This document shows positions 3,215-45,970 of a DNA stretch of 52,385 bases, piece by piece. This DNA is from a virus: positions 1 to 52,385 of the IMG/VR virus record IMGVR_UViG_3300044691_000213; one strand, given 5' to 3'. The notes beneath the pieces were generated by a model, which did no database searches, had not been told where the DNA came from, and worked only from the letters and a program-made list of their open reading frames with translations. Position 1 is the stretch's first letter. Each line of letters begins with the position of its first letter. The position numbers were made by a program, and so were the translations under genes.

Positions 3215-3260
3215 CCGAACCCCAGCGCCGCATGGGTTCTTGCGGCACCCTCCAAACTCT

Positions 3261-3305: not shown

Positions 3306-3322
3306 CTACCTCGGAGATTTGC

Positions 3323-4175: not shown

Positions 4176-4209
4176 TCGATCGAAGCTTAATTCCCCGGAG
4201 ACAATCACC

Positions 4210-4503: not shown

Positions 4504-4505
4504 TC

Positions 4506-5277: not shown

Positions 5278-5290
5278 TGGGAGCATTTTG

Positions 5291-6123: not shown

Positions 6124-6371
6124 AAGCCCACACCTTCACCCCAGACGCCGCAGCCCGAGAGGCCGACCTCCTGGCCTGGAATAATCTCGGCAAGGCGTTT
6201 GACGACCGAGCCGCCGCAAAGGCGAAGCGCGCCGCCTCCGTCATCGAATGCCGATGGCTCAAGCATGGCGATTCCGTGCCAGAGGGATGGAGTGTGTCTT
6301 CCAAGGATCCGGCTATTCTGAAGCACCACGGAGCGTATTGCGTGCTGATCGAACGGACGGTGTCGGCATGA
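6120..6371 (+). CDS. Hypothetical protein, 83 aa
   Basis: GTG 6120 overlaps the previous stop (GTGA), and its own stop overlaps the methyltransferase ATG. Contains WNNLGKAFDDRAAAKAKRAA and a C-terminal GWSVSSKDPAILKHHGAYCV. No family recognised. Confidence 0.65.
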   Translation: MKAHTFTPDAAAREADLLAWNNLGKAFDDRAAAKAKRAASVIECRWLKHGDSVPEGWSVSSKDPAILKHHGAYCVLIERTVSA

Positions 6372-6967: not shown

Positions 6968-7236
6968 CCACCTTCCCCAAGATCCACGCCGCTGTCGGAG
7001 AAAAGCTCCGCTGCACCAATGGTCATGAGGTGGCCCGTTTCCGCGAGCCCCTGATCGACGGCCAGCCCTTCGACGCCCCGCATCACCTGTCATCCTGGAT
7101 GATCTCCGACACGGACATACTCGTAGGACGATGCTCCTGCGGGTTGCCGTGGAGAGCGGGATATGGGGCATCAACTCAAGTTCGGGTTGGGAGTGAGTGG
7201 GTGCCGGTGGCTGCGGACGAGGGAGCGGGAGAATGA
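6964..7236 (+). CDS. Hypothetical protein with Cys pairs, 90 aa
   Basis: Starts at ATG 6964, overlapping the MT-A70 stop, and ends overlapping the next ATG. CTNGHEVAR near the N-terminus and RCSCGLPW near the C-terminus could form one zinc site. It lies between the two methyltransferases, but its role is unknown. Confidence 0.65.
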   Translation: MTTFPKIHAAVGEKLRCTNGHEVARFREPLIDGQPFDAPHHLSSWMISDTDILVGRCSCGLPWRAGYGASTQVRVGSEWVPVAADEGAGE

Positions 7237-11185: not shown

Positions 11186-11746
11186 ATGACCAAGCGCCGC
11201 GGCCGACCAAGAGCCAGCACAGTCAAGCGTGAATCGAACGGGCAGAAGCTCCGATCCGCGCCCGTCAAACCGGAATTCGTCGTCGCGCAGAGGGAATCAC
11301 TCGTGGGGAAAGATCAAGCCACCAATCCGATCGCGGGCCAGCCGATCGGCATCCTGCTACTCAACAAATTCGTGACGCAGGCGCAGTTCCTAGCGGCCGA
11401 TAATTTCGAGCGCGACTGGAAGCGCTGGATCTCACTCACTGGCGCAGGACCGCACCACACGAGGGCAACGGAGCGCGACGGCGGGGGTATGGGGCAAGAT
11501 CCGAGCGATGCATCGTATAGCCGCGCCAGGATCGCTCACGAGGGCGCCTCGGCATGCCTGAACGCCTGTGAGCAATCCAAGCTCATCTGGTCAATTCTCG
11601 ACACGTTGCTGATGGAATGCGTGTTGCCCCATACATGGAAGACCGCATCCGGCCTCGTGCTGCCGGACATCGTCACCGTGGCGCTGCGTCGTGGATTGGA
11701 TGCGCTGTGTCGGCATTATCGGATCAAAGAGGAGCGCGCGGCATGA
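11186..11746 (+). CDS. Hypothetical phage protein with basic N-terminus, 186 aa
   Basis: Starts MTKRRGRPRASTVKRESNG, an AT-hook-like Lys/Arg/Pro segment, followed by a helical domain (LLLNKFVTQAQFLAADNFERDWKRW; VLPDIVTVALRRGLDAL). Proteins of this layout recur just before the packaging genes in alphaproteobacterial prophages and may regulate late transcription. That role is inferred from position only. Its stop overlaps the next ATG. Confidence 0.65.
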   Translation: MTKRRGRPRASTVKRESNGQKLRSAPVKPEFVVAQRESLVGKDQATNPIAGQPIGILLLNKFVTQAQFLAADNFERDWKRWISLTGAGPHHTRATERDGGGMGQDPSDASYSRARIAHEGASACLNACEQSKLIWSILDTLLMECVLPHTWKTASGLVLPDIVTVALRRGLDALCRHYRIKEERAA

Positions 11747-11997
11747 AAAAATCACCACCCGACGATCAACGGCCCCGCACCATGGAAGACATGGCCGCGC
11801 TTCCGGAAGGCCCGGAGTTTGGCCAGACGGATATCATTGTGAACGGCCTCAAAGTCGTTATTCCGGTCGCCCCTGCGGTTATGACGTTCTGGTCAGAAGA
11901 GGGCGACCCTCTCAGCTATAGAGATGCCGACCATGTCCACTGGAGCCTAGGCCGCTACGCCGATGGGCGCTGGTATCGGCAGAGGCGCGAATCATGA
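11743..11997 (+). CDS. Hypothetical protein, 84 aa
   Basis: ATG 11743 (ATGA overlap). Contains VIPVAPAVMTFWSEEGDPLSY and WSLGRYADGRWY. It is the last gene before the probable late promoter at 12038. No family recognised. Confidence 0.6.
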   Translation: MKKSPPDDQRPRTMEDMAALPEGPEFGQTDIIVNGLKVVIPVAPAVMTFWSEEGDPLSYRDADHVHWSLGRYADGRWYRQRRES

Positions 11998-12037
11998 CGT
12001 TCCATGGCGATTGATACGCCATCCGTTGCGTAAGGGC

Positions 12038-12065
12038 TTGACGCCGCCGCAACATCGTGTATTCT
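12038..12065 (+). promoter_or_regulatory. Probable late promoter
   Basis: TTGACG (12038-12043), 16-nt spacer, TATTCT (12060-12065), on the plus strand in a gap before the HNH-terminase genes. It is the best promoter-like match between the early operon and the packaging module. Transcription would start near 12072, just upstream of a strong hairpin. Confidence 0.55.
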
Positions 12066-12086
12066 GTGATTAATAGATGCTGAGTA

Positions 12087-12120
12087 ATTGCGCCTGATTG
12101 GGAAACTGGTCGGGCGCAAT
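12087..12120 (+). promoter_or_regulatory. 13-bp leader RNA hairpin at the start of the late transcript
   Basis: ATTGCGCCTGATT (12087-12099) pairs fully with GGTCGGGCGCAAT (12108-12120) around an 8-nt loop GGGAAACT. Three of the 13 pairs are G-U, which pair only in RNA copied from this strand; the opposite strand would have A-C mismatches. No U-tract follows, so it is not a simple terminator. A cis antitermination or put-like element, or an RNA-protein site, is possible. Confidence 0.5.
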
Positions 12121-12138
12121 CGCATTTCGGGGCATGTG

Positions 12139-12339
12139 ATGAGCGCACGGATGTACGCATTCGGCCGAAGCCCATCCAAGTCGTTCCGTTCCGGCCGAGC
12201 TGCCAAGCACTACGAGGCAGAGAGCCGCACCGCTGTGCCGCGCGCTGTCATGGGCACCATCCAGGCATGGCGGCACAGCGACGGCTTCGCGGCGATGCCT
12301 AAGCACATGTCGTGGATATGGTTCAGCGCAGCCGCATAG
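12139..12339 (+). CDS. Possible small protein, 66 aa
   Basis: ATG 12139 follows TCGGGGCATGTG. The product is basic (SPSKSFRSGRAAKHYEAESR, WRHSDGFAAMPKHMSWIWF). It is the first open frame after the late promoter and hairpin. No family recognised, so it may be a chance ORF. Confidence 0.4.
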   Translation: MSARMYAFGRSPSKSFRSGRAAKHYEAESRTAVPRAVMGTIQAWRHSDGFAAMPKHMSWIWFSAAA

Positions 12340-12410
12340 AGATCCGCCCGTCATCGGGCAACGAGTTGAGACGGCCAGCACCGCGCCCCAATGATCCCAC
12401 GGGACAGGGC

Positions 12411-12788
12411 ATGAACGGAATCGTTCGACGGGTCGCACGCCGCCTCATTCAACACGAGGGAAATGTGACCCTCACCAACCTTCTCCCCCGCATAGCCACA
12501 CTGGATGTCAGGACCGCCATCCCGGCAGCCAAGAAGGCCGAGCCGTTCTACCTCACGCCCGCATGGCGCAAGCTGATAGCGGAGATCATCGAGAAGCGCG
12601 GGCGCATCTGTCAGCACTGCGGTAAGAAGGGATGTAGGATCTTCGGCGACCACGTGGAGGAACTGAAGGACGGCGGGGAAGCGCTCGATGAGAGCAACGT
12701 CGAACTGTTGTGCGGTGGCTGCCATACGCGCAAGACCGCGAAGGCCAGGGCAGCACGCATGCAAGCGCCCGCATTGAGCACCACATAG
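12411..12788 (+). CDS. HNH endonuclease next to terminase
   Basis: About 125 residues from ATG 12411; the frame is open back to GTG 12312 and ATG 12318. It has the compact phage HNH fold: YLTPAWRKLIAEIIEKRGRICQHCGKKG, then FGDHVEELKDGG, then NVELLCGGCHTRKTAKARAA. Two C-x2-C pairs bind zinc, and D-H plus the C-terminal H form the active site. In HK97-like phages an HNH protein beside the terminase is needed for specific cos cutting (HK97 gp74), and the same role is likely here. Confidence 0.88.
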   Translation: MNGIVRRVARRLIQHEGNVTLTNLLPRIATLDVRTAIPAAKKAEPFYLTPAWRKLIAEIIEKRGRICQHCGKKGCRIFGDHVEELKDGGEALDESNVELLCGGCHTRKTAKARAARMQAPALSTT

Positions 12789-12791
12789 GGG

Positions 12792-12920
12792 ATGCGAGAC
12801 GCGCCCGGCCCATCAAATAAGGATGGTGACCGCAGCCATGCGCGTGTGACATCCACGTTGCACGACACCATGCGTTTGACGCGGGGCATGGTGGCACAAT
12901 TCTTGCCGACCTTGGGATGA
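12792..12920 (+). CDS. Possible micro-protein, 42 aa
   Basis: ATG 12792 lies 3 nt after the HNH stop, and the frame ends in an ATGA overlap with another short frame. The sequence GDRSHARVTSTLHDTMRLTR is basic. No recognisable ribosome site. The coupled layout is the main support, and the stretch could instead be part of the cos region. Confidence 0.35.
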   Translation: MRDAPGPSNKDGDRSHARVTSTLHDTMRLTRGMVAQFLPTLG

Positions 12921-13012
12921 AACAACCGCTCATGGGGCCATTTGGACAAAATCCATGCCGGTCTGATTTTTCCCGGCAGTTTTGCTTGGGTTGCCATCCA
13001 GACCGCCTTTGA
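12917..13012 (+). CDS. Possible Cys-rich micro-protein, 31 aa
   Basis: ATG 12917 overlaps the stop of the preceding micro-ORF (ATGA). The sequence NPCRSDFSRQFCLGCHPDRL has three Cys and a His that could hold one zinc. It ends 20 nt before the small terminase. A coding role is plausible but unproven. Confidence 0.4.
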   Translation: MKQPLMGPFGQNPCRSDFSRQFCLGCHPDRL

Positions 13013-13032
13013 TTTGACCGGAGTTCTTTGAA

Positions 13033-13395
13033 ATGCCGCGAGGGGGATATCGACCGAATGCCGGGCGGCCGAAGGGCTCGACCAAGGCATCGATCGCGGC
13101 AAAGAAGGCTGCTCCTAAAATCGTCAGGCCAACCCCGTTGAAAGCGGAAGCCACATCCGATCCGGCGACGGACACGAGCCTGGATTATCTCATGCAGGTT
13201 ATCCGCGGCGAGGTTCATGCCACGTCTGAGGAAAGGTTGCGCGCGGCCATCGCGGCGCTCCCCTTCCAGCATCCGAAGTTGGCCGAAGCGCAGGGCGGGA
13301 AAAAGACCGCTGCGGCGGATGCTGCCAAGACGGCTGGTGCCGGAAGGTTCGCTCCACCGTCCGCGCCAAAGCTGGTCGCCGATAACACGAAGTGA
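13033..13395 (+). CDS. terS: Terminase small subunit
   Basis: 120 residues. The N-terminus PRGGYRPNAGRPKGSTK is the usual opening of many phage small terminases. The core SLDYLMQVIRGEVHATSEERLRAAIAALPFQHPKLAE is the conserved helical part. It binds packaging sites and stimulates the large subunit. Its position directly before the large subunit (GTGA overlap) and after the HNH gene fits. The C-terminus is Ala/Lys-rich and variable. Confidence 0.85.
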   Translation: MPRGGYRPNAGRPKGSTKASIAAKKAAPKIVRPTPLKAEATSDPATDTSLDYLMQVIRGEVHATSEERLRAAIAALPFQHPKLAEAQGGKKTAAADAAKTAGAGRFAPPSAPKLVADNTK

Positions 13396-15143
13396 AGGAT
13401 TGGGATACGGCCTGCCCCGACTGGCAAGAGCGCATAGTCGAGGGGCGGGGGCTGATCCCGTTCAAACCGCTGTTTCCCCAGGAGGCCGCAGCGGCCGGCG
13501 ATGTGTTCCGGCAGTTGCAGATCGTCGACGCGCCCGGAAGCCCGATGATCGGCGACGCCTGCCGGCCATGGGTGTTCGATTTCTGCGATGCCGTCTTCGG
13601 CGCCTACGATGCGGAATCCGGTCGGCGGCTGATCCGAGAATTCTTCCTCCTGGTGAGCAAGAAGAATTCCAAATCGACCATCGCCGCAGCGATCATGTTG
13701 ACGGCCCTGCTGCGGAACTGGCGGATCTCGGGCGAGTTCATCATCCTCGCGCCGACGATCGAGATCGCGGACAATTCGTTCAAGCCGGCCTCGGACATGA
13801 TCCGGGCCAACGAGGAACTGTCGCAACTCCTTCACGTGCAGTCGCACATCCGCACGATCACGCACAAGACCACGGGCGCCACGCTCAAGTCGGTTGCGGC
13901 CGATAATGAGACGGTCGGCGGCAAGAAGGCAATCGGCGTGCTGGTCGACGAGTTATGGTTGTTCGGCAAACGGCCGAATGCGGAGAACATGCTGCGCGAG
14001 GCGTGCGGCGGTCTGGCGTCCAGGCCAGAAGGCTTCGTAATCTACCTGTCGACGCAGTCGGACGATCCTCCGGCCGGCATCTTCCGGCAGAAGTTGAACT
14101 ACTTCAGGGGCGTGCGGGACGGACGGATCAAGGACAAGAAATCGCTCGGCGTGCTCTACGAGTTCCCGGATGCGATGCTGCAGGCCAAAGCCGAACGGTT
14201 GCCGCAAAACTTCCATATCACGAACCCAAACATCGGCGCCTCGGTCGACGAGGAATTCCTCGAAAGCGAATATCTGAAGGCCGAGCAGGGTGGCGAGGAA
14301 TCGCTCCGCGGCTTCCTGGCGAAACATCTGAACGTCGAGATCGGGCTCGCGCTGCGGTCTGATCGTTGGACCGGCGCGGATCTCTGGGAAGCGGCCGGCG
14401 ATAGGGCTCTCACCCTGGAAAGCCTGATCGAGCGCTCGGAAGTTGTGACGGCCGGCATCGACGGCGGCGGCCTTGATGATCTTCTCGGGTTGGCCTTCAT
14501 CGGCCGCGATGCCGAAACGCAGAAGTGGCTGCATTGGTCGCACGCCTGGGCGCACAAGATGGTGTTGAAGCGTCGGCAATCTGAGGCGCCGTTGCTCCGG
14601 GATCTTGAACGGAACGGCGAGTTGACGATCGTCGATGAATTGCCGGACGACGTGACCGAGTTGGTTGAGTTCGTCCAACAGGTCGAGGAATCCGGCAAAC
14701 TCTCCGGCGTCGGCCTCGATCCCATGGGCGTCGGCGCGATCGTTGACGCATTGGAAGCGATCGGGATCAACGGCGAGCGCGTCGTTGGCATTCCGCAGGG
14801 CTGGCAGATGATGGGCGCGATCAAGACGACGGAGCGCAAGCTGTCGGATCGGACGTTCATCCACGGCCTGCAGCAGTTGATGAGTTGGGCGGTCTCGAAT
14901 GCGCGGGTCGAGCCCCGCGGCAACGCGATCACGATCACGAAACAGGCGGCCGGCACGGGCAAGATCGATCCGCTGATGGCGACATTTGACGCGGTCGCGC
15001 TGATGTCGCGCAATCCGGAGGCTCGCAACGGCCGGTCGGTCTACGAAGAGATCGCCGCCTCAAACGCCGCAGCCAGAGAGCAAGCGCCGGCAGCCGCCGT
15101 GCCAGTGAGAAGAAGGGGCGGCTGGGAAGATGAAGATCTCTGA
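13392..15143 (+). CDS. terL: Terminase large subunit
   Basis: 583 residues from GTG 13392. The ATPase has a Walker-A-like VSKKNSKST at about 88-96 and a Walker-B VLVDE at 183-187. The C-terminal nuclease has acidic GIDGGGLDD at about 355-363 and DPLMATFDAVALM near 550. It follows the Terminase_1 (HK97/phiC31-like) pattern: packaging motor plus headful or cos nuclease. The neighbouring HNH gene favours cos packaging. It overlaps the portal gene by 14 nt. Confidence 0.96.
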   Translation: MKDWDTACPDWQERIVEGRGLIPFKPLFPQEAAAAGDVFRQLQIVDAPGSPMIGDACRPWVFDFCDAVFGAYDAESGRRLIREFFLLVSKKNSKSTIAAAIMLTALLRNWRISGEFIILAPTIEIADNSFKPASDMIRANEELSQLLHVQSHIRTITHKTTGATLKSVAADNETVGGKKAIGVLVDELWLFGKRPNAENMLREACGGLASRPEGFVIYLSTQSDDPPAGIFRQKLNYFRGVRDGRIKDKKSLGVLYEFPDAMLQAKAERLPQNFHITNPNIGASVDEEFLESEYLKAEQGGEESLRGFLAKHLNVEIGLALRSDRWTGADLWEAAGDRALTLESLIERSEVVTAGIDGGGLDDLLGLAFIGRDAETQKWLHWSHAWAHKMVLKRRQSEAPLLRDLERNGELTIVDELPDDVTELVEFVQQVEESGKLSGVGLDPMGVGAIVDALEAIGINGERVVGIPQGWQMMGAIKTTERKLSDRTFIHGLQQLMSWAVSNARVEPRGNAITITKQAAGTGKIDPLMATFDAVALMSRNPEARNGRSVYEEIAASNAAAREQAPAAAVPVRRRGGWEDEDL

Positions 15144-26400: not shown

Positions 26401-26605
26401 CCGTGATGGCATGAACTTCTCGGCGCCCCCTGCCGCAGCGAATGCGGCCACGAGCCAGTCGGCGGGAGGCGACACTTACCACGTCACCGTCCAGGCGATC
26501 GACACTCAGGCCGGCGCGCAATTCATCCAGCAGCACGCCAGGACCATCGTCACGGCGCTGCGCGCCCAGGTTCGCAACGGCACGCCGCTTCCAGGGGTGC
26601 GGTAA
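23411..26605 (+). CDS. Tail tape measure protein
   Basis: 1064 residues, the longest protein in the window. Long alpha-helical and coiled-coil stretches fill the middle (EQEKIENKIAEYQKAQQG, KKEIAEKKQATEQWW). Hydrophobic membrane-active segments lie near residues 130-160 (LSTVLAMAGVAAGVIAVGGG) and 930-950 (YVGWILAPVAAAGAFAAVAA). At about 0.15 nm per residue (the known tape-measure scaling) it predicts a tail of roughly 160 nm. It is followed by the first tail-tip gene with a 1-nt overlap. Confidence 0.95.
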   Translation: MSNLTLSLTANISDAQTKLAVLRSALTDVNATVRQQSAAYVEADNAARATMLPALQAVTAEQKNLQAGVNAATIAVKGHGEAHQGLFAKLQQNRAALQEVEHSIRASMDALAAGASPMKVASQELPRIIQAFTELNGVSLSTVLAMAGVAAGVIAVGGGLAALVIHAENVDEMFGKMQAAFEATGRGTEFTRAGAIVLIDALRSLHGVSTQNAEDMVQGFARIRTIGIGSFLDLGTAVAGYARVSGGDVKSAQETLTRALEGGYESVRKLDEQWQIFTPGQAEIARKFSDTGDKAGFMGVAISALKDKFGALIDTGLTPTQKASNDLGVAWNNLMHTFGQNSAINGARDAIARLLETMAGGINTDALETAKAKLTELQQIKTNSNPNNPLDAVFLPGIDRDIAKLQDFIALQEKAKAAAIPTGEAVPDAQQELTKQALDDYHKQTAAKAEQEKIENKIAEYQKAQQGTTGETFDALQHGIDALRVKMQSLKDAGGQTIVQQLQVELDQRIAKEQVFGAQAKALELKFWTDKLALIKTAADQANGEIEAGSRAAYQIQQKAFTLSQAVHSEEVAATKKEIAEKKQATEQWWRDYSTGMEQAIKQSAGNYDQMKALAKDWEDTGKILFGDHIAHFKSASDAILKIDAEEKAQLRKNAEKEAAFEAEQARHAQAMSQIQAKPDAGEFKVNAFDLVFSDGATKLQEQIQAQSDALTTGLRAELADLQSEMEAATTAGDSNRYQAALDKQVEAQARTTQQITALQARAATATEAAWEKALSPIDRAFSSSVQGILEGTQTTAQAMNKLAESIVMSFINAAEQDLVHWIAHELAKTTATTTGTATRKGVVAAGATSETVAENASGVAYAGVETAKTAAAVEGSTIRSTAATGEAAAGKAESAAAGSTSIMNDAYKAAAATYANVAEIPYVGWILAPVAAAGAFAAVAAYDVLSAEGGAWEINGTTPAVLHHQESVLPAAVAAPMRDFFSNGAAGALQLSVPQIRDGMNFSAPPAAANAATSQSAGGDTYHVTVQAIDTQAGAQFIQQHARTIVTALRAQVRNGTPLPGVR

Positions 26606-27246
26606 TGTCAACCGCCGTCTATCCCACCAACACCCAGTTGCCGGGCGTCACCTATACCGTCAAGCGCACGCCGCAAGTCCAGAGCCGGATTCAGATCTCG
26701 ATCAGCGGCAAGGAAACCCGGATCTCCGACTGGTCGTATCCGCGCTATAATTACGAGCTCCAATACGAGTTCCTGCGCACCGCCGCGGCTTTTCAGGAAT
26801 TGCAGCGCCTCGGGGCGTTCTACGTGGCGCGGCTCGGGCCGTTCGATTCCTTCCTGTTCAATGATGTTGACGACAATGGTGTGACCGGCCAGGTCATCGG
26901 CACGGGCGATGGGGTAGCGACCTCATTTCAACTGGTCCGCACCTATGGCCCCTCCGGCACCGTCGCGGTCGAGCCGATCTTCGCCCCGAATGTCGTCTCG
27001 GCCGTCAAGGTCAACGGCGTGCTGCAGACGGTCGATGTCGATTATGGCGTCGGCAATTGGGAGAACGGCGTCACGCCGAACGGCACGCTCGCCTTTTTCT
27101 CGGGCGCGCCTGCCGATGGCGCCGTCATTACCGCCGATTTCACCTTCTATTGGCCGTGCCGCTTCTCAGACGACACCCTCGATCTTGAGAAGTTCATGAA
27201 CGGGCTTTGGCAGGCAAAATCCGTCAAATTCATGAGTTTGAAGTGA
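26605..27246 (+). CDS. DUF2460 tail-tip protein
   Basis: 213 residues. Signature elements are QVQSRIQISISGKETRISDWSY, FQELQRLGAFYVARLGPFDSFLF, the duplicated insert with VEPIFAPNVVSAVKVNG, and the final FYWPCRFSDDTLDLEKFMNG. DUF2460 proteins correspond to the distal tail component in gene transfer agents and related siphophages, the ring between tube and hub. The order tape measure, DUF2460, DUF2163, NlpC/P60, hub is conserved in such tails. The stop overlaps a GTG (GTGA) that starts the next gene. Confidence 0.9.
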   Translation: MSTAVYPTNTQLPGVTYTVKRTPQVQSRIQISISGKETRISDWSYPRYNYELQYEFLRTAAAFQELQRLGAFYVARLGPFDSFLFNDVDDNGVTGQVIGTGDGVATSFQLVRTYGPSGTVAVEPIFAPNVVSAVKVNGVLQTVDVDYGVGNWENGVTPNGTLAFFSGAPADGAVITADFTFYWPCRFSDDTLDLEKFMNGLWQAKSVKFMSLK

Positions 27247-28601
27247 AGCCGATCTCAGACGCGCTCAAAGCGCTCCTGGCGACGCGCCAGTTCTATGCCG
27301 CCGACCTCTATACCTTCACGCTGGTCGGTGACGGCCCGGTCGCGCCATCGCCGCCGCCGCCGCCCTCACCACCGCCACCACCGCCGTCTCCTCCACCACC
27401 GCCACCACCGCCGTCTCCTCCACCACCGCCTGCTCCTGGTGGCAGCTATTACACGATCGGCCGCTACTGGTACGTCGCCACGACCGGCAATGATTCGACC
27501 GGCACCGGTACTGTGACCAATCCCTGGCGCACCATGCAGGGCGCGAACGATAGCGGCGTGCTACAGGCGGGCGACGCGGTCAATTATGCCGATGGCACCT
27601 ATACCCTGACCATCCAGACGAATCTCTCGGCCGGCGGCAACACCAACAGCCCGCTAGGCTACGTCGTCCATCGCGCAATCAATTCGCATGGCGCCAAGCT
27701 CGTGGCCGCGGGGTCGTTCTACGACATGATTGTCGCGACCGGAAACTACATTATCGTAGACGGCTTTGAGATCGACGGCAGCAACGAAGGGCTTTCGTCG
27801 AGCCCGGTGACTGCGGGGAGCGGCTTCGTCGGCCAGGGCCATCACATAATCGTCATAAACAACCTGATCCACGACTTTGGCGGGGCTGGAATAAGCTGCC
27901 TATATAAGGACTGGTACACGATCGACGGCAACACGGTACACGATTGCGCGAAGTTCAACGGGTTCCATGACTCTGGAATTGGCATCTACGAGCCGGCAGC
28001 GACGAGCTATACGCCTTCAGCCGCCGATATCGCCGCAGGTAGTCGTCACATCATCATCCAAAATAACACCTGCTATAATAACGCTGAAACCTACGTCCCG
28101 TTTAGCCTCCCGAGCAATCCTCACACGGACGGCAACGGCATTATTCTGGATGACTTCCAAAACACCCAGGGCAACAACCCATACGTATCGGTAAACACCA
28201 ACTATCCGTACAACAGTTATGTTTACAAAAACACCAGCTATAACAACGGCGGTCGGGGAGTTCACCTATTCTTTACTGACAACGTAACCGTCGACAGTAA
28301 CATTTGCTACACTAACAACCTCGACACGATTGTTACCGGCATCTGGCGCGGCGAATTGTCGAACGCCTTTGGCAACAATAACACTTGGACGAACAACAAA
28401 GCCACTTGTACCAGCACCACGAGCGGTGTCACGGCGAACAACACCGCCGTTCTCGACGGCAGTTCGTCGACTGTGAGCGTCACCTGGAACAACAACGCAA
28501 ACTACGATACCAGGACGGGCGCGCGCAGCTACAGCATAGACAACTCGGCGCGGAACGCCGCATTCCCCGGCGCCAACCCCCTAGGCGGACCCCTGCCGTG
28601 A
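27243..28601 (+). CDS. DUF2163 N-terminal stub fused to a beta-helix domain
   Basis: 452 residues from GTG 27243. Residues 1-33 (KPISDALKALLATRQFYAAD, then LYTFTLVGDG) are the N-terminus of a DUF2163 tail protein. Residues about 34-65 are a Pro/Ser linker, and the rest is a right-handed beta-helix of the pectate-lyase-like type, with repeats such as NYIIVDGFEIDGSNEGLSS, GIILDDFQNTQ, GRGVHLFFTDNVTVDSN and WRGELSNAFGNNNTWTNN. The DUF2163 body resumes as the next gene. The beta-helix stretch uses ATA and other A/T-rich codons more than its neighbours. A depolymerase or receptor-binding role is inferred. A close paralogue lies at 40285-41850. Confidence 0.85.
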   Translation: MKPISDALKALLATRQFYAADLYTFTLVGDGPVAPSPPPPPSPPPPPPSPPPPPPPPSPPPPPAPGGSYYTIGRYWYVATTGNDSTGTGTVTNPWRTMQGANDSGVLQAGDAVNYADGTYTLTIQTNLSAGGNTNSPLGYVVHRAINSHGAKLVAAGSFYDMIVATGNYIIVDGFEIDGSNEGLSSSPVTAGSGFVGQGHHIIVINNLIHDFGGAGISCLYKDWYTIDGNTVHDCAKFNGFHDSGIGIYEPAATSYTPSAADIAAGSRHIIIQNNTCYNNAETYVPFSLPSNPHTDGNGIILDDFQNTQGNNPYVSVNTNYPYNSYVYKNTSYNNGGRGVHLFFTDNVTVDSNICYTNNLDTIVTGIWRGELSNAFGNNNTWTNNKATCTSTTSGVTANNTAVLDGSSSTVSVTWNNNANYDTRTGARSYSIDNSARNAAFPGANPLGGPLP

Positions 28602-28615: not shown

Positions 28616-29428
28616 ATGGCGACGCTCTATTATTGCTCCGGCGACCGGGACATCACTGTTGACGGCATTACCTACCTGTGCGGCAAGAGCCTGACGGGTG
28701 GTCAGGGCGGCCCGTTCTTCGGCGTCAATACCAAGTTCGCGCTACATCAGAAAATCGGGCTCGAAACCGACACCATCACGTTCGATGTCATCCCCGGCGA
28801 CGGCCAGGTCTTCGGCGAGCCATTTCTGAGCGCATGCCAGGACGGCACTTTCGACGGCGCCACGGTCCAGATCGATCGGGCCTTCATGCCGACCTATGGC
28901 AATGTCGCGGCCGGGATCGTCAATGTCTTCACCGGGCGGGTGGGTGAAGTGGATGCCGGTCGGTCGGTCGCGACCTTCATGGCGAATTCCTGGATGGAAC
29001 TGCTCAATCAGGTATTGCCGCGCAATGTCTATCAGGCGAGCTGCGTGAACAATCTCGGCGATAATATGTGCGGCGTGCATCTGGAATCCTACGCGCAGAA
29101 CTTCACGATTCTGGCGGGATCGACCAAGGCAGTCCTGTTGATCGGCAGCACGGCGGGCAGCGGAGCGCCATACCAGCTTGGCAAGGTCATTGTGCAGACC
29201 GGCTTGCTCGCTGGCCTCTCGCGCTCGGTTCGGGCCTGTGCGTTTTCCGGAGGTACGGGAACGGTCACCCTGTTGGGACCGCTGCCGTCCGCGCCAGCAG
29301 TGGGCGATTCCGTCCGGCTTTACTACGGCTGCGACAAGAGCCAGGGCGCGCAGGGCTGTCCGAAATTCGCCAATATCGCGAATTTCAGGGGATTTCCGTA
29401 TATTCCTCAGCCCGTTACGGCCGTGTAA
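28616..29428 (+). CDS. DUF2163 tail-tip protein lacking its first ~30 residues
   Basis: 270 residues, ATG 28616 with CCGGAGG 6-7 nt upstream. It begins ATLYYCSGDRDITVDGITY, which normally follows the YTFTL segment inside DUF2163 proteins. It continues with KIGLETDTITFDV, then NVYQASCVNNLGDNMCGV and the C-terminal CDKSQGAQGCPKFANIANF, then RGFPYIPQP (phage BR0599-type end). DUF2163 is the hub partner between DUF2460 and NlpC/P60. Its missing N-terminus sits on the gene upstream. The good ribosome site suggests that the body is made separately and still works. Confidence 0.88.
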   Translation: MATLYYCSGDRDITVDGITYLCGKSLTGGQGGPFFGVNTKFALHQKIGLETDTITFDVIPGDGQVFGEPFLSACQDGTFDGATVQIDRAFMPTYGNVAAGIVNVFTGRVGEVDAGRSVATFMANSWMELLNQVLPRNVYQASCVNNLGDNMCGVHLESYAQNFTILAGSTKAVLLIGSTAGSGAPYQLGKVIVQTGLLAGLSRSVRACAFSGGTGTVTLLGPLPSAPAVGDSVRLYYGCDKSQGAQGCPKFANIANFRGFPYIPQPVTAV

Positions 29429-29429
29429 A

Positions 29430-29927
29430 ATGCCGACCGAAAGCGAAATCGCCATCGAGCGCGCCGCCGTTGTGGCCGAGGCAGAGGCGTGGCTTGGGAC
29501 GCCGTTTCACCATGAGGCCAGAGTCAAGGGGGCCGGAGTTGACTGCGCTCAACTCCTGGCCGGCGTCTACCATAATGCCGGGCTCATCCCGAACCTGAAT
29601 ATCTCGCACTACCCGCACGACTGGCACATGCACCGGGATGCCGAGCGCTATCTGGCGACGGTGTTTCAATATGCCGTCGAAGTGCAGGGCCTTGAAGACC
29701 GAACTCCGTTGCCGGGCGATATCGTCGTCTTCCGCTTCGGCCGCACCTTCTCGCATGGCGCGATCGTCACCGCCTGGCCGATGGTCATCCATGCCTATGT
29801 CGGCAAAGCGGTTTCGGCTGAGGACGTTTCGACCAGCGCCTATTTGCAGACGATCGGCGAGAACACCGCCGACAAGGGCCATCCAAGGCCCATGCGCGTC
29901 TTCATTTTGAAGCGGTGGGCCGAATAA
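29430..29927 (+). CDS. NlpC/P60 cell-wall peptidase of the tail tip
   Basis: 165 residues. The catalytic Cys 39 lies in GAGVDCAQLLAGVY and His 109 in RTFSHGAIVTAWP, with an upstream ALAYLGTPFHH-like region (WLGTPFHHEARVKG). This family cuts peptidoglycan cross-links and works from the tail tip during DNA entry. Starts 1 nt after the DUF2163 stop and overlaps the hub gene. Confidence 0.92.
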   Translation: MPTESEIAIERAAVVAEAEAWLGTPFHHEARVKGAGVDCAQLLAGVYHNAGLIPNLNISHYPHDWHMHRDAERYLATVFQYAVEVQGLEDRTPLPGDIVVFRFGRTFSHGAIVTAWPMVIHAYVGKAVSAEDVSTSAYLQTIGENTADKGHPRPMRVFILKRWAE

Positions 29928-32785
29928 TGGCAGGCATCTTCGGCTCCTCTTCGCAATCCACCCAAACCCCAGCGGTCAGCGGCTTCAACGTCCAGACCTC
30001 GGCCTATGGCAAGTGCATCCCGATCGTTTTCGGCTTTACGCGCCTCGCGCCAAATCTGCTGTGGTATGCGAATTTCCAGGCCCACGCCCATCAGCAGAAG
30101 GTCGGCAAGGGCGGCGGCGGGTGTTTCCTCGGCCGCGTTACTGTCGCCACCCCGCAAGGCCCGCGCCCGATCGGCGAGATGGCCGAGGGTGACGAGATCT
30201 ATTGCCGCAATCCCCTCACTGGCGAGCGGGAAATCGGCCAGGTCGTCGGCACCTCGATTCATCGGCTCGGCGACACGCCCAATCGGTTGGTCAAGATCTC
30301 ATACGAAGGAGATCGCGTCCTCGACGGCATCACCGACAATCACCATGTCTGGCTCGATCCGCAGAATTACAGCGAGGCCGGCGGTCTGACGGCCGATCAT
30401 CTGTTGGAGATGGTCGACGGTTCCATGGCGCGGGTAAGCGGCATCGAAGATATCGCGTCGGACCCGGATGATCTCGTCCATAATTTGGTTGTGCTGCCCT
30501 GGCACAACTATTTCGCCGATGGCGTGCTGGTGCATAATGGCGGCGGCGGCAAGGGGCCGGTCTCCTATACATATACCGTCGACCTGATCCTCGGAATCTG
30601 CGAAGGCCCGCTTTCCACTGGAGCGGCCGACTCCCCTCTCTGGGTCGGCAAGACGAAGACAACCGCCGCCGCGCAGGGCATGTCGTATATCGACGGCGTC
30701 TGGCCCTATCTCGCCACCAAATATCCGTCGCAGGCACTGGGCTACAACTCCGTTACGCTGCTAGTGGGGGCGAGCTATAATCTCGGAAATAACACGCAGT
30801 TGCCGAACTTCAATGTTGAAGTTGGCTTTACGTCATTGGGCGAGATTGCCAATGGGGACGAATTTCCGCACCTGATAGCACTTGAACTTCTGGGTAACTT
30901 TCAATATGGGCTGGATCTTGGCTATTACGGCGATTCATCTTCCGTGGTTGGAAGCTGGTATTTCTATCGGGATGGGTCCGGCTCATTTGTCTGGGATACA
31001 TATTACAACTATATTGTCGCCTCCGGCCTGTTCATGTCGGTTGCCTATACCAACCAAGTTCCTGCGGCGCAAATGCTGCAGGAGATCGCGACCTTCACCA
31101 ACAGCGAATGGGTCTGGTCGAACGGCAAGTTGTTCCCCGTTCCCCGCGGAACGGTGTCGCTCTCGGCCACATTTCCCGATCCATCGCTCGACGTTACCTA
31201 CACGCCGCCGACGCCCGTATTCGATCTGACCGACGATGATTTCCTGCTGAACGTCTCCGGCAGCACGACATCGACCTCGAATGACCCGATCATCGTCTCG
31301 CGCAAGCGCGTCTCGGATCAGAACAACGTCGTCACGCTGGAATGGCTCGACCGCAGCAATGAATATGCGCCGGCCATCGCGGAAGCCTCCGACCAGGCAC
31401 TGATTGATGTCTACGGACGGCGCACGACCGGCACGCAGCAGGCGCATCTGTTCGCGACCGCTTCTTGCGCGAACAATTCCGTGCAACTCCTTCTCCAAAA
31501 GGAATATGTCAGGAACACCTACAGCTTCACGCTCGATGCCCGCTATGTCGTGCTCGACCCGATGGATATCGTCACGCTGACGGACGCCGCGCTCCGGCTG
31601 GATCACGCCTGGGCGCGCATCACCGAAATGACGGAACAGACGGACGGCACGATCGCGTTTCTCGCCGAGGAAGTTCCCGAGGGCGGCGGCCAGCCGGCGC
31701 TCTATAGCTTCGCGACCGGCCAGGGGTTCAGCCCGAACTATGGCGCCGATCCGGGCATGGTCAACACGCCGATCATCTTCGCCGCCCCGACGCAATTGAC
31801 CGGCGGCGATCTGGAGGTGTGGGGGGCGGTCTCGGGCGCCAGCGCCAATTGGGGCGGCGCCAATATCTGGATCTCGCTTGACGGCGGCTCAAGCTATACC
31901 TTCATCGGCACGCAAACCGGCTCGGCGCGGATGGGCGTGCTCAATACGCTCCTGCCGGTCATGGCTGATCCCGATATCACCGACACACCGACCGTCGATC
32001 TCACGGAATCGTTCGGCGAACTCTTCTCGGTCTCCCAACCCGAAGCCGACCAAGCGCTGACGCTCTCGATCGTTGATGGCGAGTTGTTCGCCTATGAGAC
32101 GGCAACCCTGACGGCACCCTATACCTACCAACTGTCCTATCTGCGTCGCGCGCTCTACGGCACGATCCAGGCGACCCATGTTTCGGCACCGTTCGCGCGG
32201 CTCGACAACCAGATCTTCAAGTACCCCTACAAGTCGAGTCAGATCGGCCAGACCGTCTTCCTTAAATTCACCTCGTTCAACATCTATCAGGAAGCCGAGC
32301 AGAGCTTGGCCGATGTCGTGGCCTATCCTTACGTGATCGGCACGGCGCCGGATTCCAATCGCTTCACCCTGGCACAAGCATCCTCGCCAGATTGGCCCGG
32401 CACGCTCTCCGGGTTCCTCAAGACCTGGGACGGCATCCTGGTGCCCGACAGCACCCTAGGCGCCAACGCCCACACCAACGCGCAATTGTTCACGCAGTTC
32501 GTGCCGTTCCCCGTGTCGAGCCCGACCTATCAGGGGCCGGCGTTCGATATCGGGATTTCGGAGCCGGTCAACGTGACGATCCGGCCGGCGGCGTCTGCGC
32601 CGAATGGCGGCGTCGCGGTCAATGCGACGGCCCTTGATCACTGGTCGACCGGATCTGACCCGAATACCTTCGCCGCGTTCTCGACCGGCAGCATCACGGG
32701 GCGGTATTTCCGCGCCCAGATCACGCAGGACACCTCGGTTGCGCCGTCCTATGTGACCGCGCTCGCCCTCAACATCTTCAATTAG
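29927..32785 (+). CDS. Tail-tip hub protein carrying an intein-like domain
   Basis: 952 residues from ATG 29927. Residues 1-65 and 205 onward belong to a GTA gp15-like / phage tail_3-type hub: FNVQTSAYGKCIPIVFGFTR, KGPVSYTYTVDLILGICEGP, QEYVRNTYSFT-like LLQKEYVRNTYSFTLDARY, and PMDIVTLTDAALRL. Between them is a 139-residue Hint domain (66-204) in the glycine loop that usually reads K-G-G-G-K. The hub binds DUF2163 and the fibre and opens during infection. If the Hint domain cleaves, the protein would be separated into a short N-terminal piece and a 748-residue body. Confidence 0.92.
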   Translation: MAGIFGSSSQSTQTPAVSGFNVQTSAYGKCIPIVFGFTRLAPNLLWYANFQAHAHQQKVGKGGGGCFLGRVTVATPQGPRPIGEMAEGDEIYCRNPLTGEREIGQVVGTSIHRLGDTPNRLVKISYEGDRVLDGITDNHHVWLDPQNYSEAGGLTADHLLEMVDGSMARVSGIEDIASDPDDLVHNLVVLPWHNYFADGVLVHNGGGGKGPVSYTYTVDLILGICEGPLSTGAADSPLWVGKTKTTAAAQGMSYIDGVWPYLATKYPSQALGYNSVTLLVGASYNLGNNTQLPNFNVEVGFTSLGEIANGDEFPHLIALELLGNFQYGLDLGYYGDSSSVVGSWYFYRDGSGSFVWDTYYNYIVASGLFMSVAYTNQVPAAQMLQEIATFTNSEWVWSNGKLFPVPRGTVSLSATFPDPSLDVTYTPPTPVFDLTDDDFLLNVSGSTTSTSNDPIIVSRKRVSDQNNVVTLEWLDRSNEYAPAIAEASDQALIDVYGRRTTGTQQAHLFATASCANNSVQLLLQKEYVRNTYSFTLDARYVVLDPMDIVTLTDAALRLDHAWARITEMTEQTDGTIAFLAEEVPEGGGQPALYSFATGQGFSPNYGADPGMVNTPIIFAAPTQLTGGDLEVWGAVSGASANWGGANIWISLDGGSSYTFIGTQTGSARMGVLNTLLPVMADPDITDTPTVDLTESFGELFSVSQPEADQALTLSIVDGELFAYETATLTAPYTYQLSYLRRALYGTIQATHVSAPFARLDNQIFKYPYKSSQIGQTVFLKFTSFNIYQEAEQSLADVVAYPYVIGTAPDSNRFTLAQASSPDWPGTLSGFLKTWDGILVPDSTLGANAHTNAQLFTQFVPFPVSSPTYQGPAFDIGISEPVNVTIRPAASAPNGGVAVNATALDHWSTGSDPNTFAAFSTGSITGRYFRAQITQDTSVAPSYVTALALNIFN
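30122..30538 (+). other. Hint / bacterial intein-like (BIL, A-type) domain
   Basis: 139 residues in frame inside the hub gene. Block A is CFLGRVTVATPQGPRPIGEM with Cys1. Block B is the T-x-x-H motif TDNHHVW (T71, H74). Block F/G is VHNLVVLPWHNYFADGVLVHN, ending His138-Asn139. The domain is bordered by GGGG on both sides. There is no homing-endonuclease insert. The residue after Asn139 is Gly, not Cys, Ser or Thr, so full canonical splicing is not expected; N- and C-terminal cleavage is. This matches A-type BIL domains. Confidence 0.88.
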
Positions 32786-39318: not shown

Positions 39319-39867
39319 ATGGCTGATTTCCTCGGGCAGCTTGGCGACATCCTCGCCCAAGTGGCGCCCACTGCCGCCTCCATGTTCGGCGGCCCGCTCG
39401 CCGGCACTGCCGTGACCTGGGTCGAGGGTCAATTGGGCATCACGCCCCCGGCCGGCTCCGGTCTCGCCGATCGCCAGCAAACGCTGTTGGGCGCCTTGCA
39501 AGGCCTGACCGGGGATCAGCTTGTCGCGGTGCGAAAGGCCGATTCCGATTGGAAGGTCGCGCTTGTCAATGCCGGCGTGTTGCTGGAGCAGACTGACGAG
39601 AAGGACCGCGAAAGCGCCCGGTCGATGGCCGCGGCGATGAAGGATCGCACGCCGATGATCATCGCGATTCTCGTCATCGCCATGTGGTGCGGCGTCGAGG
39701 CGTTTCTGATGTTCGGCACGCTCACGACAACCATGCAGGCGTCGTTTGAGACCGGCCAGCGCACGCTGCAGGACGTGCTGATGCTTGTCGTTTCTTATTA
39801 CTTTGGAAGCAGTGCCGGCCATCAACGCGCAACGGAATTGCTCGCCCAGAGCAGCCCGGCCTCATGA
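39319..39867 (+). CDS. Holin (GTA 3TM-type)
   Basis: 182 residues. An apolar N-terminal region (VAPTAASMFGGPLAGTAVTW) and two strong membrane segments: MIIAILVIAMWCGVEAFLMF (about 111-131) and LQDVLMLVVSYYFGSSAG (about 149-166). The ARSMAAAMKDRTP segment before them and the YYFGSSAG end are characteristic of the holin 3TM family in alphaproteobacterial phages and GTAs. It forms the membrane lesions that release the endolysin. Confidence 0.85.
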   Translation: MADFLGQLGDILAQVAPTAASMFGGPLAGTAVTWVEGQLGITPPAGSGLADRQQTLLGALQGLTGDQLVAVRKADSDWKVALVNAGVLLEQTDEKDRESARSMAAAMKDRTPMIIAILVIAMWCGVEAFLMFGTLTTTMQASFETGQRTLQDVLMLVVSYYFGSSAGHQRATELLAQSSPAS

Positions 39868-40226: not shown

Positions 40227-40284
40227 GCCGCATCTTCCCTAAGCGCTCTGCACTCGCTGCGGGGCGCCTTCCTGGAGAAATCAG

Positions 40285-41850
40285 ATGCGCTATTTGACCG
40301 CTCTCATGGTGGGAGCGATGGCCCTTGCATGCCTGAATCCCGCCAGCGCCGCGATTGGCGCCCAACTCACCGCCGCGCCCCAGGCGCCCGCCGTCATGGC
40401 GAACCAATCACTGACGGTCAACCTCACTACTCATGCCATCGTTCCTGCGGGACAGAGCGCGTGGCTCACGTCGCTGGGGACATCGGGGACTCATGGGAAA
40501 GTGGCATGGGCCAGCGTCTACGCAATCACCTACACGCCGGGCAGCTATTACGCCGCCCTCGCGAAGGGGGCCAGCGCCACCGACAAGCTCACCTATTGCC
40601 TGACGGACAATGCCGGCGGCTCGAGCTGCAATACCGTCTCCGTCACGGTCTTCGGTACGGCGACGGCCACGATCCCGCCGGTGACGACCCCGCCCGTGAC
40701 GACCCCGCCGACGACCACGGCCAGCTACACCTGCGTGCGCAACTGGTACGTCGGTCAGAACGGGTCGGACAGTGCCGCCGGCACGGCGGCGACCGTGCCG
40801 TGGAAGACGCTGCAGCACGCGAACGACAGCGGTCTGCTGAAGGCCGGTGATTGCGTCAATGTCGCTCCCGGGACATACCCGATCGTCAACACGACGTACC
40901 TGACGCACGGCGGTAACGCGAATTCCCCGACCGGTTATGTCGTCTATCGCTCGACCACGCCCCAGGGGGCCAAGATCCAGGCGGCGGCCCAGAACATGTA
41001 CAATCTGGTCGAAGCCGATGGCGACTACATGATCTTCGACGGTTTCGAGATCGACGGTAAAAACGAAGGGCTTTCGTCGGCGCCGTTCACCATGGGCCAT
41101 GGCCTGGTCGGTGGCGGGCATCATTTCCAGGCTTTGAACAACGTCGCCCACGACTGCGGCGGCGCGGGGATCTCGACGGTCTACAAGGATTGGTACTGGA
41201 TCGTCGGCAACACGACCTACAACAACGCCCGGTTCAACGGCTACCAGGCGTCGGGCATCTCGATCTACGAGCCGCGCGCGGTCAGCTATACCGCGACCAG
41301 TGCCGACACGAGCGCCACGTATCACATCATCGTGAAGGACAACCTCTCGTACAATAATGACGAACGGTACGTGGCCGGAAACCATACCGACGGCAACGGC
41401 ATCATCATGGATGACTTCCGCAACTCGCAGTCGGGCCTGGCCGCCTATCCCTACAAGTCGCTGGTTCAGGGCAACACGACGTACGGCAACGGCGCTCGGG
41501 GCGTGCACCTGTTCTTCACCGACAACGTGACGGTGGATAGCAACGTCGCCTACAACGACAATCTCGATACGTTGATCATCGGAAGCTGGCGCGGCGAGCT
41601 GTCGAACGCCATCGGCAGCAACAACACCTGGACGAACAACAAGGCCGCCGCGACCAGCGTCCCGACCGACTGGCGCAGCTACAACACCGCCGTCCTCGAT
41701 GGCCATGCGGGTGCCGCCAACGTCAACGTGATCTGGACCGGCAACGCCAACTTCGACACAAGGACCGGCGGCAAGAGCTACCAGATCGACGACGCCACCC
41801 GCGCGGCGGCCTTCCCGGCAGCCAACCCGCTCGGCAAGGCGCTGCCGTAG
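40285..41850 (+). CDS. Secreted beta-helix protein, paralogue of the tail-tip beta-helix
   Basis: 521 residues. A signal peptide (RYLTALMVGAMALACLNPAS, then AA) precedes an Ig/cadherin-like region to about residue 120 (DKLTYCLTDNAGGSSCNTVS), then a Thr/Pro linker (PPVTTPPVTTPP), then a right-handed beta-helix closely similar to 27243-28601: DGFEIDGKNEGLSS, HTDGNGIIMDDFRNSQ, GARGVHLFFTDNVTVDSN, WRGELSNAIGSNNTWTNNKA. Codon use is GC-rich like the backbone, unlike the tail copy. It is probably a secreted polysaccharide-active or surface protein made at lysis; the substrate is unknown. The 218 nt downstream hold no gene I can support. Confidence 0.88.
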   Translation: MRYLTALMVGAMALACLNPASAAIGAQLTAAPQAPAVMANQSLTVNLTTHAIVPAGQSAWLTSLGTSGTHGKVAWASVYAITYTPGSYYAALAKGASATDKLTYCLTDNAGGSSCNTVSVTVFGTATATIPPVTTPPVTTPPTTTASYTCVRNWYVGQNGSDSAAGTAATVPWKTLQHANDSGLLKAGDCVNVAPGTYPIVNTTYLTHGGNANSPTGYVVYRSTTPQGAKIQAAAQNMYNLVEADGDYMIFDGFEIDGKNEGLSSAPFTMGHGLVGGGHHFQALNNVAHDCGGAGISTVYKDWYWIVGNTTYNNARFNGYQASGISIYEPRAVSYTATSADTSATYHIIVKDNLSYNNDERYVAGNHTDGNGIIMDDFRNSQSGLAAYPYKSLVQGNTTYGNGARGVHLFFTDNVTVDSNVAYNDNLDTLIIGSWRGELSNAIGSNNTWTNNKAAATSVPTDWRSYNTAVLDGHAGAANVNVIWTGNANFDTRTGGKSYQIDDATRAAAFPAANPLGKALP

Positions 41851-44908: not shown

Positions 44909-45970
44909 TCATGACGCCTTACCGCGAGGGGTCTTTTTCGATGTGGACCGTTCCAGTTTCCGTATCGCAAGCTTCGTCATCTCGGGCATCCGCGGCAGGT
45001 ACGTCCGCAAGATCGTCTCGGCATTCTTGAGCGTATGGCCCGTCACGGAGGCGATTTCCGGAACCGTGCAACCGGCTTGGGCGAGCTTGACGACGGCAGT
45101 GCGGCGGAAGTCGCGGATCTGCATATCCTTGATCCCAGCCCTCCCGCAGACCGTATCGTACCAGTCCCGGAATCGCGTGGTTGAGATCGGCTGCCCAATG
45201 CGGTCGGTGACGATGTGCGTGCCCTTGGCAATAGCCTTGGCGGCCCTCAACTGCGCCGCCAGATCGGTATGGCACCAGATCCGCAGGAACGCCCCGGTCT
45301 TCTGCTGCCGAACCTCGATGCCATCGGTGTTCCAGCGCGCCCAGGTCATCGCCAGCACGTCGCCCGGGCGTTGGGCCGTATAGAGCAGCAGGGCAATGCC
45401 CAGGCGCAGCGCAGCGCCTTCCTCGTGGGCATCGGCCGCAGCGAGCAGCGCCGCAATCTGATCATCACCCCAGACCTGTGACCGAACCGGCGATGCCTCA
45501 AGCCGAAGGTCGCGCGTCGGGTTCTCGGTGATCAGGCGCAGATGCCGCGCCAGGTCGAGCAGATTGTTCAGCACGCCAATCGCGAGCTCGCGTGTTGCTG
45601 GCCGGTCGTTCAGGCCCTTGGCGAACTCATGCACCATCGGAAAGTCGATCTCGGCCGCTTGCAGGTCACCCCAATCGGTTTCGTATCGGTTCAGCCAGAT
45701 GCCGTAGGCTTTTTGCGTTGCCGCGGCCTTGGCCTTGAAGCCGTCGCTGTCGCGATACTCGCGCACGAGCCATCCGATCGAGTGGATATCGAAACCCGTC
45801 CCGCCCTTCTTCGCCTGATCCGCGCGCCGGTTCAGCCGCTCTGCCTCGCGGAACCGCGCGACCTCATTGTCTGACAACCGGACGAGCTTATTGCCCGGCC
45901 GCTGCCAGTACCAGATGATGCGGCCCCCGGCCTTAACCCGCTTTGTGACGTACCGCATTCTTACCAGCAT
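44909..45970 (-). CDS. int: Tyrosine recombinase integrase
   Basis: 353 residues (ATG 45970; ATG 45958 is an alternative). The N-terminal arm- and core-binding regions extend to about 165. The catalytic domain has Arg 201 (YTAQRPGDVL), Lys 224 (RQQKTGAFLRI), box II RDFRRT with Arg 289, His 312 (VTGHTLKNAE) and the nucleophile Tyr 324 (LRTYLPR). The usual box-II His (H-x-L-R) is Arg 286 here. It integrates and excises the phage at att sites. It is the last gene of the leftward operon and overlaps the excisionase-like gene. Confidence 0.95.
   Translation of the reverse strand: MLVRMRYVTKRVKAGGRIIWYWQRPGNKLVRLSDNEVARFREAERLNRRADQAKKGGTGFDIHSIGWLVREYRDSDGFKAKAAATQKAYGIWLNRYETDWGDLQAAEIDFPMVHEFAKGLNDRPATRELAIGVLNNLLDLARHLRLITENPTRDLRLEASPVRSQVWGDDQIAALLAAADAHEEGAALRLGIALLLYTAQRPGDVLAMTWARWNTDGIEVRQQKTGAFLRIWCHTDLAAQLRAAKAIAKGTHIVTDRIGQPISTTRFRDWYDTVCGRAGIKDMQIRDFRRTAVVKLAQAGCTVPEIASVTGHTLKNAETILRTYLPRMPEMTKLAIRKLERSTSKKTPRGKAS

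Follow-up and report, generated by a model that had tools for sequence, protein, structure and literature searches.

Why would a phage encode the same protein fold twice, once in its tail module and once behind a predicted export signal? This question is raised by a siphovirus-like viral record of 52,385 bases (hereafter the window, meaning the whole stretch of DNA that was analysed), in which terminase, portal, major head protein and integrase genes are present. Depolymerases of tailspikes and tail fibres, such as those of Sf6, P22, Det7 and CBA120, likewise place a right-handed beta-helix in a virion protein. Unlike those phages, the window phage encodes the helix a second time with a signal peptide. 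The tail module of the window phage is GTA-like, with DUF2460, hub, NlpC/P60 and Rcc01698-like genes, and the phage is probably temperate because a tyrosine integrase gene is present (44909–45970, minus strand; PF00589, E 5.5e-33 for phrog_1 and 2.8e-10 for the Pfam family). DNA methyltransferase genes of the MT-A70 type and the C-5 cytosine type occupy positions 6248–6967 and 7197–8564.

Two copies of one beta-helix in a single phage genome

The gene of the exported copy lies on the plus strand at 40285–41850, stop codon included, and encodes 521 amino acids from an ATG start, with a ribosome-binding-like GGAGAA at 40274–40279, 5 nt ahead of that start. As the initial annotation had proposed, the product carries a predicted signal peptide, an Ig-like region and a Thr/Pro linker, and the tail copy is without all three. 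The predicted Sec signal peptide, read from the sequence, covers residues 1–22 (40285–40350) and consists of MR, a hydrophobic core and NPASA, with a single hydrophobic segment at residues 6–24. Next come a Big_9 Ig-like domain (residues 32–121, 40378–40647; PF17963, E 1.3e-5, 26.5 bits with a Pfam cut-off of 23.6), which is of low confidence in the AlphaFold2 model, and the Thr/Pro linker (residues 126–147, 40660–40725), evident from the sequence and from pLDDT values below 50 at residues 123–143. The remainder (residues 148–521, 40726–41847) is a right-handed beta-helix according to the AlphaFold2 model and its fold matches.

The gene of the tail copy (27243–28601, plus strand) encodes 452 amino acids from a GTG at 27243; we placed the start there, and the mechanical ORF list begins the frame at TTG 27207. 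The GTG overlaps the stop codon (27244–27246) of the upstream DUF2460 tail gene (26605–27246, plus strand; PF09343, E 7e-44), and a gene of baseplate hub type follows downstream (28616–29428, plus strand; PF09931, E 7e-26; PF09356, E 2e-18). Sitting between these two genes, the tail copy is by position a predicted virion protein. Its layout comprises about 33 residues (27243–27341), presumed from their position to be a virion anchor, then a Pro-rich linker and the beta-helix (27450–28598; Pfam Beta_helix, E 2.4e-7). The anchor peptide has no match in the phage records or in PHROGs. The same module includes a tail tip gene of the GTA Rcc01698-like type (29915–32785, plus strand; PF13550, PF23666; phrog_1101), the product of which contains a Hint/intein-like insert at residues ~70–207 that starts CFLGRVTVATPQG and ends VLVHN before GGGGKG. 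Pfam Hint_2 matches this insert at only E 0.066, under the cut-off, and the residue after HN is Gly, not Cys, Ser or Thr, so ordinary splicing is doubtful.

A tblastn search of the window with the 521-residue protein finds one other place, the helix of the tail copy on the plus strand, at which 221 of 386 residues (57%) are identical (E 1e-132), a homology far beyond chance. There is no third copy of the helix in the window, since the next tblastn match is noise (E 9.8), and a second search agrees. The near-identical stretches that had first drawn attention to the pair were all found: RGVHLFFTDNVTVDSN is identical at 16 of 16 residues, and the stretches WRGELSNA-x-G-x-NNTWTNN and DGFEIDG-x-NEGLSS match. 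One phage thus does encode the same fold twice, with one copy in the tail module and the other bearing a predicted export signal.

Over 371 aligned codons, the two window copies share 59% protein identity and 64% DNA identity. Residues 389–438 are the most alike and hold the longest identical run, and even there the same codon is used at 43% of the identical residues. Because of these values for DNA identity and shared codons, a recent duplication or gene conversion can be ruled out, and the likeness of this stretch appears to have been kept by selection or to stem from an old exchange rather than from recent copying. The tail copy is the more A/T-rich of the two (helix GC 0.563 versus 0.627), which the initial annotation had taken as a possible sign of a different history. 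The composition was seen correctly, but the argument for a foreign origin fails because the tail partner is A/T-richer in all three pairs that we examined (tail/exported GC of 0.563/0.627, 0.547/0.610 and 0.538/0.580), and because the codon score of the tail copy (-1.068) is no more extreme than those of 15 late phage genes, which span -0.81 to -1.148.

Fold, conserved residues and export features

The model of the exported copy is a right-handed parallel beta-helix that is highly confident over most of residues 148–517, with 10-residue pLDDT means mostly of 85–98 across residues 151–510. When this model was used for a fold search of the PDB, the best match was pectate lyase Pel9A (Z 31.1, 2.4 Å, 297 residues, 18% identity), and the beta-helix enzymes and tailspikes as a group matched at Z 24–31. 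The enzymes included rhamnogalacturonan lyase, RbmB (a Vibrio lyase) and both epimerases and lyases of alginate, and the tailspikes included those of Sf6 (Z 25.7) and Dettilon (Z 26.5). The closest known structures are thus Pel9A, of polysaccharide lyase family 9 (PL9), and the alginate epimerase/lyase group (AlgE4, AlgE6, PL6), at 14–18% identity. A sequence search of the PDB with a 7-row profile gave only matches at E 0.03 and 0.37.

The predicted helix has the fold that characterizes PL9, a family with a lysine-based mechanism that employs a catalytic Lys and a calcium-binding Asp cluster. In an alignment of 18 family members, 28 columns are invariant, including H279, H280, H367, D369, N371, D376 and D428, and their core is the motif HTDGNGIIMDD (residues 367–377, 41383–41415). 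None of the 28 is a Lys, so the lysine-based PL9 mechanism is not supported. Both window copies retain the residues that are invariant in the 18 members, among them HTDGNGII, D376 and H279-H280. A shared fold alone demonstrates no function. Cutting or modifying of a polysaccharide is the natural inference from the modelled fold together with the genetic context described below, and both helices are probably depolymerases, either lyases or hydrolases.

Two cysteines near the N-cap, Cys150 and Cys190, are found in all three exported phage copies and in none of five tail copies, a pattern that would fit an oxidising compartment for the exported form. Across 35 scored family members (six more of the 41 rows were unscorable), a crude heuristic called a leader in 11 of the 15 that have both cysteines and in 4 of the 20 others (Fisher p 0.002). 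One of those four calls, for the tail copy tailG1, is an internal stretch and probably false; the heuristic missed leaders that are visible by eye in L014, L018, phL032 and phL037; and L016, L019 and L021 are exceptions with a called leader and no Cys pair. Since leader-bearing bacterial relatives (L013, L015 and L017) have the same two cysteines, the pair is probably ancestral and was lost in the tail copies.

Similar pairs in other phages

At the limits used, neither copy has a relative in a GenBank collection of 50,697 phage records, and the exported copy has no PHROG match. Relatives of the helix are held in IMG/VR. Among its records, the podovirus-like phages G001 (63 kb) and G002 (58 kb) carry two copies each, one tail-fused and one with a signal peptide. 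These two phages are mutual kin, with 90% identity in, for example, virion-type genes of 453 and 781 residues, and they are unlike the window phage. Their tail copy forms the C-terminus of a larger protein, the gene for which adjoins that of an Hc3 connector (phrog_578, E 2e-93 in G001), and their exported copies are encoded elsewhere in the genome, on the strand opposite to the structural genes. The exported gene therefore occupies different places, at the end of a late-strand block in the window versus an opposite-strand block in G001 and G002.

A third record of this podovirus-like lineage, G005 (62 kb; 71–73% identity in those two genes), lacks an exported copy and holds just the tail-fused one, which means that the pair is not obligatory, and the tail copy of a 25-kb record (G004) resembles that of G005. 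Among 15 viral records plus the window, the combination of a tail copy with a leader-bearing copy occurs in three records, and nearly all others have one family gene (nine of the 15 have one match and six have at least two, with the matches of G012, G013 and G015 being pieces of a single gene). The pair has thus turned up more than once without being universal, and its exported gene lies at different places in the different lineages.

In a relative (G003, contig L009, 12.6 kb), a 1708-residue tail tip protein like the GTA megatron is encoded at 1898–7021 and has the helix as its C-terminus, joined through a Pro-rich linker, so that the helix seems to have moved to another tail gene. This record carries a phosphoesterase gene like that of the window and ends before the place expected for an exported copy. 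Podovirus-like tail copies (L030:9170–11203 and L004:8621–11185) start with a peptide that resembles the beginning of the Hc3-type protein encoded by the adjacent gene, and this peptide is perhaps a duplicated virion anchor.

Other arrangements were seen as well. A 110-kb record (G010; L035:2689–4917 and 11576–14497) encodes two leader-bearing helix members ~7–8 kb apart; several successive genes of another viral record (L012:5687–13455) start with signal-peptide-like leaders; and distant helix relatives in the viral records L088, L089 and L091 have a clear leader of the MNFKALLGAAFGAFLFSGQAFA type and the same Cys pair.

Bacterial relatives and exopolysaccharide loci

Relatives of the helix are also encoded on 15 bacterial genome contigs (26–42% identity) and 30 plasmid records, and choice-of-anchor Q proteins of exopolysaccharide clusters in Rhizobium and Rhodobacterales belong to the same helix family (35–38% identity over ~70% of the query). 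The family is rare, being present at E 1e-30 in two of 395 genomes of the order that includes Paracraurococcus and in eight of 390 of the order that includes Paracoccus. When these same two sets were searched for a possible host, none of their genomes was found to hold a member of the phage clade. Phage copies are by far the closest relatives of the exported copy, with bit scores of at least 600 versus at most 276 for those in bacterial genomes.

Five plasmid neighbourhoods were inspected, one of them without annotation, and at the four annotated loci the relatives lie amid genes such as those for sugar transferases or other glycosyltransferases, UDP-glucuronate decarboxylase and O-antigen ligase. 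In bacterial genomes, a priming sugar transferase (PF02397) is encoded within 20 kb of the relative in 9 of 12 cases, when 0.44 would be expected at random sites (P(≥9) 2e-11). A flippase (PF13440) is similarly placed in 8 of 12, and one or the other in 10 of 12. In this test, G017 was counted through its second copy, a flippase gene just past 20 kb in G569 was left uncounted, and G019, in which the relative is on a 10-kb contig, and G717, in which the distance exceeds 250 kb, were counted as misses. Because the bacterial relatives occur in loci for exopolysaccharide synthesis, the helix family is tied to exopolysaccharide, though not to one polymer.

By sequence, the bacterial relatives are exported too, through leaders or RTX repeats, and an export signal is therefore not peculiar to the phage pair. 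These proteins extend into a choice-of-anchor Q region, and some to RTX repeats, whereas all eight phage copies stop earlier. The anchor Q domain (NF041518) is absent from both window copies at E 0.1 and present in the relatives L060 (1.5e-8) and L014 (3.1e-10).

A possible mosaic history

The initial annotation had offered either duplication or separate capture as the source of the two copies, and separate capture from hosts is now disfavoured. In the whole-helix tree, all eight copies from phages fall in a single clade (support 96/97), rather than each grouping with unrelated families, and every one of them lacks the C-terminal region of the bacterial relatives and ends ...NPLG(G/K)xLP. The N-terminal half alone leaves this point unsettled, for there the eight-copy clade is weak (46/36), and in a 21-row tree the outside rows L013 and phL032 fall inside it. 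Trees omit phL037, phL012, phL035, L019 and L021, which are too distant or split, and phL035b, which has 60 residues; the 14-row tree further omits seven of the 21 rows (phL032, phL034, phL036, L017, L018, rhizL031 and rhizL033).

Whether the copies sort by role or by phage lineage was addressed with 15 clade questions in an AU analysis, of which five needed no test and ten were tested, with uncorrected p-values. For the whole helix, neither a clade of all tail copies (p 0.125) nor one of all exported copies (p 0.077) is rejected. With the helix split at residue 330, a position picked after viewing the alignment, the C-terminal half (331–521) rejects both the all-tail clade (p 0.0009) and the all-exported clade (p 0.001). 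In this half, podovirus copies of both roles group together (99/98), and the window copies are sisters (78/75 with 14 rows or 92/89 with 21 rows). The N-terminal half gives a weak signal in which the tail copies group (60/66 or 80/85) and lineage groupings are rejected (p 0.03 each). A single old split between tail and exported forms for the entire protein is thus rejected in the C-terminal half only.

Column patterns place the matching of both copies of one phage in residues 399–458 (41479–41658), which hold 7 of 13 and 8 of 15 lineage-matched columns and no role-matched ones. The lineage-matched columns cluster at 411–444, mainly at 411–413, 419–435, 442 and 444 (permutation p 0.003 and 0.006), and the 8 and 9 columns that match crosswise represent the level of background noise. 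Over residues 399–470, the exported copy of the window is 68% identical to its own tail copy versus 36–43% to the exported copies of G001 and G002. There is no enrichment of lineage-matched columns near the presumed groove strands (7 of 16 versus a background of 116 of 284).

Two histories remain for these patterns. Each lineage may have duplicated the gene on its own, in which case the Cys pair was retained or restored in the exported copies. Alternatively, a single ancient pair may have swapped C-terminal parts inside individual genomes, and such intragenomic exchange may better explain the N-terminal features that are shared.

Genomic setting of the exported copy

The exported copy had been described as lying behind the lysis genes, which could not be established, as none of the three genes upstream of 40285 matches a lysis family in Pfam, PHROGs or further family profiles. 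One of them (39319–39867, plus strand) encodes a small membrane protein with one hydrophobic segment that is a possible holin and matches phrog_1544, a family of unknown function (E 1.7e-12). No relative of the protein encoded at 38425 was found by additional searches. Distant kin of the 39319 gene in the Rhodoferax phage P26218 adjoins a gene annotated with GH108 and peptidoglycan domains, and this endolysin-like neighbour makes a lysis cassette plausible, with the label being a positional one.

The exported gene is the last large plus-strand gene of the late block and begins 58 nt past the preceding ORF on the same strand. Between 38100 and 42600, there is no promoter-like site in a scan for the sigma-70 consensus only and no plus-strand terminator-like site, which is compatible with a single transcript. 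The short same-strand spacing and the missing promoter-like site suggest that the gene is expressed late.

Discussion

A comparable pair in two viruses unrelated to this one suggests that a single host coating is attacked both at entry and at exit. Such a two-place attack, which the initial annotation had proposed, is plausible, and we give about an even chance to a scheme in which exopolysaccharide is opened by the tail copy at adsorption, while a late-made exported copy escapes at lysis and removes that polymer from the path of the progeny. One exopolysaccharide-directed beta-helix would then be encoded in two forms, both derived from one phage-borne family. The tail form (27243–28601), carried on the virion, would bind and cut host exopolysaccharide during adsorption. 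The exported form (40285–41850), produced from the end of the late gene block, would reach the periplasm through Sec, with a disulphide between Cys150 and Cys190 perhaps stabilising it, and on being freed at lysis it would cut that polymer too, which would keep progeny from becoming trapped by, or re-adsorbing to, slime and debris. Within each phage lineage, the resemblance of the two forms over part of the C-terminal half would have been preserved by selection, by intragenomic exchange, or by both. Enzymatic cutting, an identical substrate, export, the disulphide, late timing and a benefit at release are what we infer from the sequences and the model. Release at lysis as the sole role does not fit G001 and G002, in which the exported copy is located outside of the structural block.

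The alternative that survives best, although we consider it somewhat unlikely, is surface conversion or exclusion, wherein the exported copy acts in a lysogen or early in infection to strip or trim the polysaccharide that the tail copy recognises, and the cell thereby resists the same and related phages. An integrase is encoded by the window phage, and the exported gene is the last large plus-strand gene of its block, the end of a gene block being a usual place for morons. In G001, the gene next after the exported copy (L007:3010–4170) encodes an O-acyltransferase (Acyl_transf_3, PF01757, E 5e-26), a gene type known from surface conversion, but no such gene is beside the exported copy of G002. 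The transcription of both podovirus-like exported copies opposite to the structural genes is consistent with conversion, as are the matched C-terminal segments, which would fit a shared receptor. The close same-strand spacing in the window, with no promoter-like site in the sigma-70 consensus scan, argues instead against expression apart from the late block. A precedent is found in a 2020 review, where a free tailspike is proposed to strip cells and make them insensitive (PMC6966330). Release and conversion both predict shared specificity; it is timing and the phenotype of the lysogen that separate them.

A more elaborate proposal, which we advance tentatively and regard as unlikely, is a matched two-enzyme system directed against one host polymer. 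A virion-bound recogniser and cutter would be accompanied by an exported, receptor-destroying twin. Exchange between the paired genes inside each genome would keep the specificity segment of this twin in step with the tail enzyme, so that the exported partner follows changes in the target of the tail.

It is rather improbable that the exported copy is a moron of benefit to the host, modifying the exopolysaccharide or biofilm of the lysogen in a role unrelated to the job of the tail copy. Such a role would be in keeping with bacterial relatives that are proteins of exopolysaccharide clusters, and an enzyme of this kind exists in WceF of Pantoea stewartii, described as an exopolysaccharide-operon glycanase of 736 residues with a tailspike-like fold and a Tat signal (PMC7949094). 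However, the closest relatives of the exported copy are phage copies rather than bacterial ones, and its C-terminal half follows the tail copy of its own phage. Least probable of all is that a common soil-phage module was picked up twice, with likeness reflecting ancestry and no joint function. The single family gene of most other viral records might suggest this, but a tail-fused copy together with an exported one is seen in two phage lineages that are unlike each other, and the C-terminal halves sort by lineage.

Among known systems, PghP of phage phiNIT1 is a polymer-degrading enzyme outside of the virion that is released at burst (PMC6966330; PMC4497714). Its substrate is poly-gamma-glutamate, and the portion of the review that concerns it does not describe it as the twin of a tail protein (PMC6966330), whereas the window protein has a Sec-type leader and homology to a tail protein of its own phage. 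Depolymerases that are set free at lysis outside of the particle are described in reviews (PMC5380687), and free tailspikes made from alternative starts have also been proposed in the 2020 review (PMC6966330). WceF resembles the bacterial relatives of the window family in being an exported beta-helix encoded with exopolysaccharide synthesis genes, and differs in being a host gene product with a Tat signal and with no sequence link to the window family that we could find. In literature searches of open-licence papers, no phage combining a tail beta-helix with an exported paralogue was found. Soluble phage depolymerases and tailspike-fold enzymes of exopolysaccharide operons are thus already known, and it is the pairing of a tail protein with an exported paralogue that appears to be new.

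The escape of progeny from the slime of the producer cell and the avoidance of binding to debris have mostly been guessed from plaque halos. If the exported copy serves release, then the deletion of one gene would make this question of escape testable. Moreover, if the two copies share their specificity, they would constitute a natural pair for finding the residues that set the polymer specificity of a beta-helix.
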